Positions 3,063 to 9,228 of a stretch of 26,535 nucleotides of DNA are shown here, in pieces. The position numbers and the translations under genes were made by a program. The notes under the pieces were generated by a model. The model saw only the letters and a program-made list of their open reading frames with translations. It was not told the DNA's origin and ran no database searches. The first letter of the stretch is position 1. Each line of letters begins with the position of its first letter. Origin of the DNA: a virus; IMG/VR virus record IMGVR_UViG_3300032087_004950, positions 1 through 26,535 of that record; one strand, given 5' to 3'.

Positions 3063-4052
3063 TCACGCTCCCCCCATTCGCATGTCTGGGCCGCTGCACC
3101 TCACAGCGACCCCGCACCCCTGAAAGCGGCTGTCGATCCGCTCGTCCAACCACCCCAAGTGAGACAACCGCCCCTCCGCGTCGAGCTGGGACGGCGCGAG
3201 GTTCGTAACGATCATCGTCGGCAGTCGTTCGGACAATCGCTTATGCAGAAGCCGAATGATCTCTTTCTTCTCTCGCTCGCTGTAGCCGTGCGACCGAGTA
3301 GACCCAAGCTCATCGAGGACCAGGAACGGGATCGCCCCGGCCCGATACATCAGCCCACGCGAATGATTCGCCACGTCTTTCGCGTCGCTGAACTGGTCGA
3401 CTGCCGCCCGAATGAACTCGTCCTCGGTCATATAGAGCGCATTCCCGATCACCTCATCGTTCACCGACTTAGCGATCGCCCATGCTGCGGCTACGCTCTT
3501 CCCTGAGCCCCTCGAACCATGCACGAGCAGACAAGACGGGCCGCCGACCGATCCGAGCTTGTCCGTCCCGATCCACCGATAGAGCGCCGCCATGAGATCG
3601 GCTCTGTGCTCGTTCTTGTAGAGCGCTTTCGCCGCCTGCCGGAGCTGGTCCGGGATGATCCGCTCGATCGTCGCTCGGGTCTGTTGCCGGTGGCGACCCT
3701 TCGCGCAGTCGTCACAAAACGCCGCCGGGCGGTCCCAATGCCTCCCGACCTTCGCGGGCTGGACAATATTGGTGCAGCTCGCGCACGGCCAAGGCATAGG
3801 ACAACCGCACACGCCGGGGCGACAATACATCGGCGGCGCCTCTGTCGGCCTCTCGGGTGACTGGTCACAGCATGGACACAAGTACTCTCCAGGCTCCTGA
3901 CCCGTGAGGATCAGCCATTGATCCCGGATCGGCGTTCTCTTGACTGTCTGTGGAATCTGAAACATAACGATCTCGGCCTCCATTGTGGTTCTTTGGTTGG
4001 TCTCCCGCGCGGTCTGCCTCTCGCTGAAGCTGACCGCGTTTTTTTTGCTCAC
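3063..4052 (-). CDS. DnaC-like AAA+ helicase loader with N-terminal Cys-rich domain
   Basis: 329 residues. Walker A GSRGSGKS at 179-186, Walker B FLVLDELG at 243-250, sensor-I-like TMIVTNLAP at 279-287 and an arginine-finger-like DERIDSRF near 303-310 define a DnaC/IstB-type AAA+ ATPase. Residues 59-116 hold ten Cys in CxCC, CxC and CxxC groups, probably two zinc-binding sites, as in many phage loaders. It should deliver the host replicative helicase to the phage origin, the job of lambda P. It directly follows the initiator (GTGA overlap at 4049-4052). The GTG at 4052 has no visible Shine-Dalgarno and relies on coupling; an internal ATG at 3983 is an alternative start. Confidence 0.9.
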   Translation of the reverse strand: MSKKNAVSFSERQTARETNQRTTMEAEIVMFQIPQTVKRTPIRDQWLILTGQEPGEYLCPCCDQSPERPTEAPPMYCRPGVCGCPMPWPCASCTNIVQPAKVGRHWDRPAAFCDDCAKGRHRQQTRATIERIIPDQLRQAAKALYKNEHRADLMAALYRWIGTDKLGSVGGPSCLLVHGSRGSGKSVAAAWAIAKSVNDEVIGNALYMTEDEFIRAAVDQFSDAKDVANHSRGLMYRAGAIPFLVLDELGSTRSHGYSEREKKEIIRLLHKRLSERLPTMIVTNLAPSQLDAEGRLSHLGWLDERIDSRFQGCGVAVRCSGPDMRMGGA

Positions 4053-5026
4053 AGCACGTCGGCAAGTTCGTTGTCCGGGTCGACCGTCCGATCGACTGGC
4101 CCCATAGTCGGCGCCTCTCCGATTCTCACGAAGTCGGATCCGCGCTTGTTTCGCTTCCTGGCTCGCGCTTTGCTCTTCGTCTCGGCGCTCCAGTTCACGG
4201 CGATCTTGCGAAGATAGGCGATCCCGTCCCTCGGGCCTCCCCTGCCAAAGCCCACGCCTTGATCGATCATGGTCTCGATCGCCCCGGCTAAGCTCTCGGG
4301 CTTCTCGGCGAGCCTCATCAGTTCGGACCCGTGAGCGTTCAAGGTCTCCTCGGCTGTTGAGGTGGCCGCGAGGACTCCGCCGGTCTCCCTGCGCCTCTGG
4401 GCCATCTCTTCACACCAACGGGCTACTTGATCGGCACAACCCGCCGGGAAGTCTCCGAGCCCTACGCGCGAGCGCCTGAGTGTGTCCGCGCCCCCGCGCG
4501 GTTTGTTTCTTCTCTTCTCTTTTCTTTTCTTATCATATAGGCCGATCGCGGATCGTTCGTTGTCCGTACCGTGATCGATCAGTGATCGATCATCGTTCGA
4601 TCCGTGGTCGTGTTGTGGTCGGTTGTCGATCGGCTTGTCCTGGCCTTTCCGGTAGTCGCCAACGATCTGCGCGGCCTCCCATGTCTCGGACGGCGGCGCC
4701 GGGTGAGACGGGCGCGGACGCTTGGACCGGTGGTCTCGGGTTATGTCCTGATCGAACCGGTCCAGCACGCCATAGGTCGAGCCCTCTACTTCGTAAGTGT
4801 GAACCAGCCCGGCCGACTTGAGCCGGTCCAGGATCTCGGTCATCTCGCCTGGGGCAATGAAGGCGCCAAGCGCGCGACGTAGCGCCGTGGCTCCGGCCTC
4901 GAACCGCCCATGCTCATCGGCCGCGAGGTACAGGCTCAAGAGCATTCCGCGATCGGCGTGCGATAGGTCTAGGACGCGCTCCTCGGATAGAAGTCGTCGC
5001 GGTACGGGCATCCATGGCCAGCTCAT
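4049..5026 (-). CDS. phage replication initiator (lambda O-like/replisome organiser)
   Basis: 325 residues. The N-terminal 90 or so form a winged-helix domain of the kind that opens phage replication proteins: RRLLSEERVLDLSHADRG, then a bilobed helix region and GLVHTYEVEGSTYGVLDRF as the wing. A hydrophilic linker (about 95-180) full of Asp, His, Arg and Lys follows, then a helical C-terminal domain that would contact the helicase loader. The next gene is the loader, which reproduces the lambda O-P order. The linker-coding DNA (residues about 135-175) carries tandem 11-bp repeats and an A+T-rich pyrimidine tract, so the gene probably contains the origin. The ATG at 5026 overlaps the regulator's stop as ATGA. 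Confidence 0.82.
   Translation of the reverse strand: MSWPWMPVPRRLLSEERVLDLSHADRGMLLSLYLAADEHGRFEAGATALRRALGAFIAPGEMTEILDRLKSAGLVHTYEVEGSTYGVLDRFDQDITRDHRSKRPRPSHPAPPSETWEAAQIVGDYRKGQDKPIDNRPQHDHGSNDDRSLIDHGTDNERSAIGLYDKKRKEKRRNKPRGGADTLRRSRVGLGDFPAGCADQVARWCEEMAQRRRETGGVLAATSTAEETLNAHGSELMRLAEKPESLAGAIETMIDQGVGFGRGGPRDGIAYLRKIAVNWSAETKSKARARKRNKRGSDFVRIGEAPTMGPVDRTVDPDNELADVL
4502..4635. other. probable phage replication origin inside the initiator gene
   Basis: Two perfect tandem copies of GTGATCGATCA (4571-4581, 4582-4592), each containing the palindrome TGATCGATCA, are followed in the same 11-bp register by degenerate copies (TCGTTCGATCC, GTGGTCGTGTT, GTGGTCGGTTG) to about 4625. Next to them, 4502-4540 is an A+T-rich, almost pure pyrimidine tract in otherwise G+C-rich DNA, a good duplex-unwinding element. 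Iterons beside an unwinding tract inside the initiator gene is the lambda ori arrangement. Because 11 is not a multiple of 3, the repeat cannot come from a repeated peptide. Confidence 0.7.
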
Positions 5027-5241
5027 CGGTCAACCACCCAATCAGCTGCTCGGACCTTGCCGAAGGTGAAGTCCTCCAGGACCAACGCCATACGAAGCCC
5101 CGGACGGTGCTCGCCGCGCGTCCATCGGCTGATCGTGGCCTGCGGGATCCCCGTTCGTCGGCTGATCTCGTTCTGGCTGATCCCGGTCGCCTGTATCCAT
5201 TCGACGAGAGCAAGGCGCCCTTTGTTTGTGTCGTTCGTCAT
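5023..5241 (-). CDS. Cro/CI-type helix-turn-helix regulator
   Basis: 72 residues from the ATG at 5241, after GGGAG. GISQNEISRRTGIPQATISRW (about residues 20-40) is a textbook lambda-repressor-like HTH (XRE family); the protein has no oligomerisation or protease domain, so it is Cro-sized. It is the first gene of the early minus operon and is transcribed away from the exonuclease/RecT operon across a 75-bp region with TATAC half-sites, so it probably represses one or both promoters. The stop overlaps the initiator start as ATGA. A role as a YdaS/Cro analogue or as a copy-number brake on replication would both fit. Confidence 0.85.
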   Translation of the reverse strand: MTNDTNKGRLALVEWIQATGISQNEISRRTGIPQATISRWTRGEHRPGLRMALVLEDFTFGKVRAADWVVDR

Positions 5242-7451: not shown

Positions 7452-7460
7452 ACAAAGAAA

Positions 7461-7488
7461 AGCCCGCCGGGATTGCTCCGGGCGGGCT
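7461..7488 (-). terminator. Rho-independent terminator (hairpin module copy 1)
   Basis: AGCCCGCC and GGCGGGCT form a perfect 8-bp stem around a 12-nt loop; on the minus strand the stem is followed by TTTTCTTTG, so it ends the transcript of the gene at 7508-7726, about 20 nt after its stop. On the plus strand the same hairpin follows recT by 9 nt but lacks a T-run. CCCACGCA precedes the stem on the minus strand, as in copies 2 and 3. Confidence 0.8.
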
Positions 7489-7507
7489 GGCGGGTGCGTG
7501 GGTGCGG

Positions 7508-7726
7508 TTACTCGTCTAGTCTGGTTAGCCAAAGATCTTTCCATCCGTCCGGGTGAACTGTCAGACGAACGCGGCCCATGCCATCAAACTCAGACGCGAG
7601 ATCCCTTGCTTCTGCCTTTCGGACCTGGACCCATCCGAAGTCATGAGCGACAACCCGAACCGGTCCCGGCTTGTTAATCTCAGATAGAACGCTCGCGCCG
7701 CTAACCGTGTAGGCCTCTTCCGTCAT
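7508..7726 (-). CDS. small hypothetical protein (72 aa)
   Basis: Start ATG at 7726, five bases after AGGGTGA; a GTG at 7735 is in frame but has no spacing. The protein looks beta-rich with a basic middle: GPVRVVAHDFGWVQVRKAE and RVRLTVHPDGWKDLWLTRLDE. No known motif. It follows the 54-residue gene by 10 nt and is the last gene before terminator copy 1, so the two are probably one transcript. Not recognised. Confidence 0.65.
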   Translation of the reverse strand: MTEEAYTVSGASVLSEINKPGPVRVVAHDFGWVQVRKAEARDLASEFDGMGRVRLTVHPDGWKDLWLTRLDE

Positions 7727-7901: not shown

Positions 7902-7945
7902 GGTCTCTACTCCTCGGCCCCTCGGCCTAGTGGTTCTACCCAGAA

Positions 7946-7972
7946 AGCCCGCCGAGCTGAGCTGGGCGGGCT
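7946..7972 (-). terminator. hairpin module copy 2, weak terminator or attenuator
   Basis: The same AGCCCGCC/GGCGGGCT stem as copies 1 and 3, with an 11-nt loop of different sequence. It begins about 22 nt after the stop of the 7994-8203 gene and is followed on the minus strand by only TTTCTGGG, a poor T-tract. It may allow partial read-through into the two genes beyond. Confidence 0.6.
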
Positions 7973-7993
7973 ACTTTAGTGCGTGGGCATCGC

Positions 7994-8203
7994 CTACGGG
8001 ATGCGACCGGGCGCGGGCCGCTTGTCTCCAATGGGAGCCAATCCGTAATGAACCCTCACGGCATCAATGACGACAACGCCCGCCGCTGTGCGACCGGCCC
8101 AAGTAGTCATCGCATGGTTCACAGAAAACCCCTCGCCGACAATGAAGTCGATCGTCTCGATTGCGTCATCGATCAGAAGCTGTGCGGTGGTTGCGTTCGT
8201 CAT
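7994..8203 (-). CDS. small hypothetical protein (69 aa)
   Basis: ATG at 8203 after AAGGAAG. The N-terminus is helical (TTAQLLIDDAIETIDFIVGEG), followed by AGVVVIDAVRVHYGLAPIG and a Pro-rich basic tail. No transmembrane segment and no known motif. It is the first gene behind the promoter in repeat copy A (leader of about 33 nt) and is followed by hairpin copy 2, so it forms a nearly self-contained unit. Role unknown; a host-takeover or superinfection function is only a guess from position. Confidence 0.65.
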   Translation of the reverse strand: MTNATTAQLLIDDAIETIDFIVGEGFSVNHAMTTWAGRTAAGVVVIDAVRVHYGLAPIGDKRPAPGRIP

Positions 8204-8234
8204 GTCGTCTTCCTTTGGGCTCCCGCCCTGTGTT

Positions 8235-8280
8235 CTGAGACCTTTATACGTCGGAACGATTTAAGAACGCAACCAAAAAA
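8235..8280. repeat. 46-bp direct repeat, copy A, with minus-strand promoter
   Basis: Identical at every base to 9112-9157. On the minus strand it holds TATAAA (8243-8248) and TTGCGT (8267-8272) 18 bp apart, a plausible sigma-70-type promoter for the 7994-8203 gene. It also contains GAACG twice, 11 bp apart, a possible operator. Similarity continues more loosely to about 8330, including an 8-T run (8306-8313), here flanked by the inverted repeat TCGGTG/CACCGA. Confidence 0.8.
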
Positions 8281-8407
8281 CACATGTTTCTGTACCTTTT
8301 CGGTGTTTTTTTTCACCGATGCGGTTCGGTGCAGCGTTTAGCAGACGAAGAAAAACGCGGCGCGAGCTGTCCAGGACGGCCGGATCGCCTCTAGCGCGTC
8401 GGCGTGA
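8281..8407. other. gene-free stretch beside repeat copy A
   Basis: No convincing reading frame on either strand. It holds the TCGGTG-T8-CACCGA hairpin (8300-8319), which has no T-run after it in either direction. In the matching place next to copy B the plus-strand HTH gene begins, so this stretch may mark where a second plus-strand gene was lost or never present. Confidence 0.4.
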
Positions 8408-8701: not shown

Positions 8702-8737
8702 GGTCTCACCTCCCCGGTGATCGTAGCACAAAAGAAA

Positions 8738-8765
8738 AGCCCGCCGAGATTGCTCCGGGCGGGCT
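8738..8765 (-). terminator. Rho-independent terminator (hairpin module copy 3)
   Basis: Nearly identical to copy 1, differing at one loop base: 8-bp AGCCCGCC/GGCGGGCT stem, 12-nt loop, then TTTTCTTTTG on the minus strand. It starts about 23 nt after the stop of the 8788-9078 gene and is preceded by CCCACGCA as in the other copies. Confidence 0.8.
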
Positions 8766-8787
8766 GGGTGGATGCGTGGGTGGGTGG

Positions 8788-9078
8788 CTAGACAGACGGC
8801 CACCTTGCCCCGAGATCGCTAGGCAACGGAAAGTTCAGCCCGCTGTCCATAGCGCCAAGCACAGCCGCCATGCGGTTGATCGCAAGGTCGGAAGAGTCGC
8901 GAACATGCGACCAGTCCCAAAAGTCAGCGGAGCCCTGCTTCGGGGCTCCGAGCCCATCGGCCGCGACGCGAACCCACTGATCCTGAAGATCGGTGAGCTG
9001 GCCAAAACGGCTACCCGAAGGATGGAGAAACGAGACAACAATGTCCCAAGATGAAGAAACCGAAAAAGCACTAGCCAT
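8788..9078 (-). CDS. hypothetical protein (96 aa)
   Basis: ATG at 9078, five bases after GGGAGG, behind the promoter of repeat copy B. The sequence is Trp- and Ser-rich (SSSWDIVVSFLHPSG, ADFWDWSHVRDSSD) with a short amphipathic helix (LAINRMAAVLGAM). No signal peptide, membrane segment or motif I recognise. It is bounded by its own promoter and by terminator copy 3, so it is an independent transcription unit. Confidence 0.65.
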   Translation of the reverse strand: MASAFSVSSSWDIVVSFLHPSGSRFGQLTDLQDQWVRVAADGLGAPKQGSADFWDWSHVRDSSDLAINRMAAVLGAMDSGLNFPLPSDLGARWPSV

Positions 9079-9111
9079 GCTGGCCTCCCTGGGGTCGCCC
9101 CCGTCCGTTGA

Positions 9112-9157
9112 CTGAGACCTTTATACGTCGGAACGATTTAAGAACGCAACCAAAAAA
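9112..9157. repeat. 46-bp direct repeat, copy B, with minus-strand promoter
   Basis: Perfect copy of 8235-8280. Minus-strand TATAAA (9120-9125) and TTGCGT 18 bp away would drive the 8788-9078 gene with a leader of about 35 nt. Rightwards it separates that gene from the divergent HTH gene at 9229, so it may also be that gene's control region. An 8-T run (9182-9189) is kept at the equivalent place downstream, but without the flanking inverted repeat seen at copy A. Confidence 0.8.
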
Positions 9158-9228
9158 GCACATTTTTTTATCTTTCTGGTGTTTTTTTTCGTCGGGTCGG
9201 TTATGAATGGGGGCAGGAGGTGCACAAA

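Follow-up and report, generated by a model that had tools for sequence, protein, structure and literature searches.

A probable composite replication origin within the linker-coding part of a phage initiator gene

The 26,535-base IMG/VR virus record that was analysed in its entirety for this study (hereafter termed the window) carries two adjoining repeat arrays at positions 4505-4636. Judged from sequence comparisons, this segment very probably serves as the composite replication origin of the phage, placed where the phage's own initiator gene encodes the linker of its protein. The same in-gene layout appears to occur in hundreds of relatives, both viruses and integrated viruses. The features computed here are the two arrays, their order and phase, selection on the DNA, the link between the repeat unit and the N-terminal domain (N-domain) of the initiator, and the gene context.

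In the proposed mechanism, the winged-helix N-domain of the 4049-5026 product would bind 11-bp, often palindromic units. Because there is one unit per helical turn, bound N-domains would line up on one face of the DNA to form a phased nucleoprotein array, whose end would keep a constant helical distance to a second array of short-period, purine-rich repeats. The duplex would open at this second array and one strand would be engaged, and the exchangeable C-terminal domain (C-domain) and the adjacent DnaC-like loader would then deliver a host DnaB-type helicase. We infer binding, opening and loading by analogy with lambda O (PMC7466680), SPP1 gp38 (PMC6316719) and RepA_N plasmids (PMC5703833); strand capture and use of the site in vivo are likewise presumed.

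Two arrays in the initiator gene of the window

The gene containing the candidate origin (4049-5026, minus strand; 325 aa) encodes what profile matches place as a divergent member of the PHROG 16167/1408/2149 initiator family. Its N-domain matches PHROG 16167 (3.8e-6), 1408 (4.9e-5) and 2149 (2.1e-3) and is BLAST-similar to 56 other family members, and the protein lacks the MARxRTIKP start that is common in the family. An AlphaFold2 model built on a 60-sequence alignment (59 relatives) predicts a winged-helix core at residues 23-88 (4763-4960, minus strand) with a pLDDT of 84.6; the full initiator modelled without an alignment reached only 39.6 and was unusable. A sequence search of the PDB with the single initiator protein gave no match. 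In Foldseek comparisons with solved structures, the top matches are N-domains of RepA_N-type plasmid initiators (4pql, E 6.2e-4, TM 0.50), and a viral structure library returned many proteins named ‘replisome organizer’. VIA-align scored the RepA_N N-domain at Z 7.9 over 90 residues, a value tied with unrelated winged helices.

The next gene (3063-4052, minus strand) matches DnaC-like helicase loaders (phrog_50, 5.8e-16; phrog_3277, 9.1e-12). An earlier note made from the DNA letters alone had proposed a winged-helix initiator beside such a loader, and the predicted fold and profile matches bear out both assignments. The first gene of the operon (5023-5241, minus strand) encodes a Cro/CI-type HTH regulator (HTH_3, 7.2e-9), and the RecE-like and RecT genes of the window are in the opposite orientation.

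The exact tandem repeat described in that note, GTGATCGATCA at 4571-4581 and 4582-4592, is present there and nowhere else in the 26,535 bases. Each copy of this perfect pair includes the 10-bp palindrome TGATCGATCA, with 1 base separating the two, and a lone third copy of the palindrome lies at 4260-4269, inside the C-domain coding part. With additional decayed copies, the same 11-bp register extends to nine units at 4538-4636 (minus strand), of which about five, the perfect pair included, had been noticed; the core is nnGnTCGnTCn as read on the plus strand. In order of position the units are TAGGCCGATCG, CGGATCGTTCG, TTGTCCGTACC, GTGATCGATCA, GTGATCGATCA, TCGTTCGATCC, GTGGTCGTGTT, GTGGTCGGTTG and TCGATCGGCTT. 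Columns 3 (G), 6 (C) and 7 (G) are invariant in all nine and hold most of the information; apart from the perfect pair, the units are degenerate.

Among periods of 5 to 30 scanned over 26.5 kb, the nine-copy information score at period 11 ranks first (z = 9.06 at 4540-4638). None of 200 sequences drawn from a fifth-order Markov model of the remaining window sequence, which preserves its GATC excess, reached the period-11 score (best 8.05 versus 11.26). Likewise, random synonymous recoding that retained the same protein never reached the array score in 2000 attempts. Against codon permutation, the linker of the window gives z values of 9.9 at period 11 and 7.6 at period 5. GC skew has no clear switch at the site and lends the origin no support; the measure is confounded by gene direction and uninformative here. 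GATC itself occurs 397 times in the window (1-26535) versus 93 expected from base composition, and CGATCG 49 times versus 9. A methyltransferase-like gene is located at 876-1694 (phrog_799), and host identity or modification may lie behind the excess.

The period-5 signal comes from a purine pentamer array at 4505-4534 (minus strand), which reads GATAA GAAAA GAAAA GAGAA GAGAA GAAAC on the coding (minus) strand from 4534 down to 4505. It corresponds to the A+T-rich polypyrimidine tract at 4502-4540 that had been taken for an unwinding tract. The first part of that description stands: the tract has 26% GC inside a gene of 63% GC, 4501-4540 is the least stable 40-mer of the entire window (-1.12 kcal/mol per bp, versus -1.10 for the lambda tract in the identical calculation), and the longest pyrimidine run of the window is 4506-4531 (26 nt). 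A+T-richness, however, is not what the family conserves, as described below.

The linker layout among relatives

Relatives were recovered through the N-domain. The full initiator matched nothing among annotated phages and plasmids, the loader retrieved no relatives from viral contigs, and a first scan of genome contigs with the N-domain of the window also gave no match. Viral contigs yielded two near relatives only (L002 and L003), which are the sole other carriers of the exact repeat pair and its TGATCGATCA units. Both of these contigs end inside the origin region (at window positions 4513 and 4568), and the breaks may reflect strain mixtures sharing this segment. Dispersed repeats of about 50-130 bp, which in the window sit in short-gene and intergenic stretches (7454-7514, 7926-7987, 8180-8314, 8731-8792 and 9085-9193), are present in both near relatives as well.

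Use of the N-domain alone with a loose E-value identified three remote phage homologues, which provided a bridge to the family. In two of them, from uncultured spring phages, the same linker has its strongest period at 11 bp exactly; their units differ, and purine repeats follow the array. The third (F10) has a period of 8. The spring-phage result made the layout a prediction that could be tested blind in a wider sample. Further relatives were fetched with N-domain peptides as the sole query, and retrieval was therefore blind to the repeats. The samples comprised 18 annotated phages, 80 viral contigs out of at least 588 matches, and 80 prophage loci out of 392 matches, from which 149 non-redundant genes were obtained (81 in the first set, and 68 from bacterial genomes of many phyla). 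Cultured phages such as HK639 (E. coli) and Redi (M. smegmatis) also belong to the family. Since per-gene period scans with few copies are noisy, pooled and permutation tests were used.

In the 81-gene first set, self-similarity pooled over the linkers (nt 300-440) has peaks at lags of 11, 22 and 33, and nothing comparable is seen at these lags in the parts that encode the N- and C-termini. With the window left out (80 genes), the value at lag 11 is 0.366 versus 0.307 for codon-permuted sequences (z 16.7), with z values of 13.7 at lag 22 and 10.7-12.5 at lag 5. Single genes exceed z = 3 at lag 11 in 57 of 81 cases. The 68 further genes repeat this outcome, with lag 11 (0.375) as the top of lags 4-33, followed by lag 22. 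A lag-11 segment is found in 60% of family genes versus 4% of control ORFs from the same loci, and both arrays are found in 54% versus 2.5%; at the cut-off used, about 40% of relatives have no clear lag-11 segment. When examined in related phages and by lag-11 autocorrelation, the array recurs while the sequence of its unit varies. The spacing between ACGCG/CGCGT cores is 11 bp in 187 instances versus 10 bp in 20 (88 genes), and these cores occupy all three reading frames. In 41% of the arrays tested, the 11-bp units have a dyad symmetry above the 95th percentile obtained after column shuffling.

The order of the two elements is also retained, with the iterons ahead of the short array in 42 of the 44 genes that have both, and a helicase or loader gene adjoins the initiator in the family. 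Short-array periods are 5, 7 or 8. In the first set the array is a polypurine pentamer in 51 genes and is absent in 14 of 81; the rest have heptamers or octamers, including GGGAACA and also TGATTCC, whose purine-rich strand is the opposite one. The short array matches its gene in GC content (median difference -0.01 in the family), and the label ‘unwinding tract’ therefore misses the conserved feature. The conserved property of the second element is a short-period, strand-asymmetric purine array, not A+T-richness.

Several other observations concern these relatives. Six of them (L014, L017, L018, L028, L098 and L103) carry TGATTCC heptamers on the coding strand, with the purine-rich strand opposite, and strand choice may differ between this subclass and those with purines on the coding strand. 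A motif resembling CTTGTGCAAGTCCAAGG or CTTAATCTAGATCAAGG is located between the iterons and the purine array, about 25 bp before the latter, in many relatives (e.g. L031, L037, L038, L043 and L047), and is possibly a hairpin or a third element. The ‘HNH endonuclease’ profile phrog_5718 is also matched by the initiator N-domain family (L008, L012, L014, L018, L024, L025 and L026). If real fusions exist, an origin-reading domain may guide a nuclease to the origin of a rival; PMC8263062 deals with a chimeric nuclease that acts on a satellite. In L009 (MW202713), the initiator gene at 1899-2693 is unannotated in the deposited genome even though its 264-aa frame is open, and a 192-base feature beside the initiator start is named ‘DNA gyrase subunit a isomerase’.

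Selection, unit recognition and helical phase

Synonymous change was examined at codons with a conserved amino acid in 42 independent pairs of family genes, with the expectation for each pair derived from its own N-domain divergence and amino-acid mix. The iteron array has 56 synonymous differences versus 176 expected and the short array 45 versus 139 (both 0.32 of expectation), compared with 731 versus 613 (1.19) in the C-domain. These family pairs replace a comparison of the window with its two closest relatives (0 of 42 versus 31 of 129 codons in one of them), which was dropped as support because identity to the other relative extends further, such that recombination or assembly could explain the suppression.

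It is exceedingly improbable that the arrays have no function as DNA and that, in a genome rich in GATC, chance or slippage produced them while selection acted on the protein sequence of a charged linker (K, E, G, R, D). The linker is indeed of low complexity, GATC is present at four times its expected frequency in the window, and a weak protein repeat exists (33 bp = 11 residues). However, a protein repeat as the cause of the array is ruled out by the protein-preserving null, the Markov null fails as well, and synonymous change is suppressed in the family. Furthermore, periods of 5, 7 and 11 are not multiples of three, and the cores fall in all three frames. Selection on DNA rather than protein, previously argued from the period alone, is therefore upheld.

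The identity of the unit follows the N-domain. Unit similarity tracks N-domain identity (Spearman 0.70, 0 of 300 permutations) and not C-domain identity (Spearman 0.05), and the short-array type also tracks the N-domain (partial correlation 0.47, 0 of 200). Among pairs, 99% are BLAST-similar in the N-domain and 4.8% in the C-domain, and the C-domains of the family include DnaT-like (PF17948) and lambda-O-like types. Recognition of the units by the N-domain is thus likely from these sequence correlations, and only likely because DNA linkage could account for part of them and unit classes are best told apart by residues mainly within 15-50, not in the helix at 59-71.

This link also bears on whether the array might be an operator or silencer for an HTH regulator or for the initiator itself, with no origin involved. 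An HTH regulator gene lies directly upstream and initiators often autoregulate, but the array is about 400 bp within the coding region, its unit tracks the initiator's own N-domain, and the short array, phase and position are retained in phages with different neighbouring genes, all of which make an operator very unlikely. A partition, packaging or recombination site set in the initiator gene is a highly improbable explanation as well. Partition sites also contain phased palindromic arrays, and C-domains past the array are exchanged as at a recombination seam; yet the association of the arrays with a replication-initiation protein, and with a gene for a helicase or loader, is constant, and lambda, SPP1 and RepA_N plasmids offer precedents for an origin.

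The two arrays are held in helical register. In 54 of 60 genes, the distance between the last CGCG dyad and the first GGAAR pentamer is 8-10 modulo 11 (Rayleigh R 0.81), and most distances are 10, about 20 or 31 bp. The first G-pentamer of the window begins 9.5 bp (modulo 11) past the dyad register. The p-value for phase is nominal, since the genes are related by descent and the family pattern was already known when this start was picked.

Two readings of the purine array have to be weighed. A classical lambda design would have the initiator bound at the iterons, and the tract would melt only because it is A+T-rich, with its pentamer pattern incidental. We regard this as a possible but lesser reading. 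The window itself fits, given its 26% GC tract in a 63% GC gene, its least stable 40-mer and a similar tract in lambda. In the family, by contrast, the short array has the GC content of its gene and yet keeps a period of 5, 7 or 8, its purine asymmetry, its synonymous constraint and its helical phase. Alternatively, and we hold this tentatively at somewhat below an even chance, the initiator binds the purine array sequence-specifically as a single strand, which would make this array, phased with the iterons, the phage equivalent of the DnaA-trios. N-domain, iterons and pentamers would then constitute a portable module that has been swapped onto unrelated helicase-recruiting C-domains (DnaT-like, lambda-O-like and others).

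If the in-gene origin proposed here is real, hundreds of uncharacterised phages and prophages, whose hosts range from Acidobacteria to Actinobacteria, would have origins that can be read from one gene, and the K/E/G-rich linkers of many phage initiators would be explained, since the linker would be origin DNA. Two ideas that are confounded in lambda, melting by A+T-richness and strand recognition, would also be separated, because most relatives retain the purine periodicity without A+T-richness. Moreover, the protein-DNA pairs would offer a natural series for learning how this winged helix reads its unit.

Comparison with known systems

The lambda-like origin proposed in the earlier note is sustained in layout but not in components. 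As in lambda and Stx phages, where initiator-binding repeats are located within gene O (PMC7466680), the window has repeats in mid-gene (codons 130-163, versus 117-145 in lambda), then a weak tract whose purines are on the coding strand, and a loader gene adjoins. However, the protein of the window does not match PF04492, which lambda O matches at 5.7e-36, and its partner matches DnaC-like loaders and no P-type profile. In addition, its 11-bp units keep one 11-bp register, whereas the 18-bp iterons of lambda are 20-24 bp apart, and the pentamer array is a further difference.

Replication genes of the RepA_N plasmids pSK41 and pTZ2162 (PF06970) offer a second parallel. According to the available text of PMC5703833, a winged-helix N-domain binds boxes central in rep, the linker is dispensable as protein, and the C-domain is host-specific; plasmid pPR9 carries an N-domain and ori segment on a pSK41 C-domain, and this N-domain is similar to a phage replication protein. 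The family of the window similarly has boxes in a linker between a conserved N-domain and exchangeable C-domains. Nevertheless, the window protein has no match to PF06970 (or to any Pfam entry at E 0.1), its fold scores are not above those for other winged helices, and that same text mentions no purine pentamer array for these plasmids. By Pfam, the protein is a member of neither the lambda O nor the RepA_N group.

The oriL of Bacillus phage SPP1, in gene 38, also places direct repeats and an AT-rich unwinding element within the initiator gene, with loader gp39 and helicase gp40 as partners (PMC6316719). Its likeness to the window is drawn from this layout (in-gene repeats, second element and loader). 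By analogy only, bacterial oriC combines double-stranded DnaA boxes with a short-period, strand-specific element, as DnaA-trios and a DnaD recognition element are found there (PMC10201434). That element has a period of 3 and is used with the AAA+ protein DnaA, whereas the family combines a winged-helix protein with periods of 5 to 8.

Origins inside genes are already known, and repeats within a single O-like gene have been noted in Pseudomonas phage MD8 (PMC8508860). The literature searched holds no description of an in-gene origin for the PHROG 16167/1408/2149 family, nor of the family-wide layout seen here, which is weak evidence given that subscription papers were mostly beyond reach. Apparently new relative to those papers is a large phage family that has one-turn iterons of freely changing sequence with a phased, short-repeat purine array that is not generally A+T-rich. 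To the PHROG 16167/1408/2149 initiators the window is linked both by the sequence match of its protein and by the family-wide linker layout. The best reading is a composite in-gene origin that would resemble lambda O/ori and the RepA_N plasmids in its working, with an initiator that carries the Pfam domain of neither.
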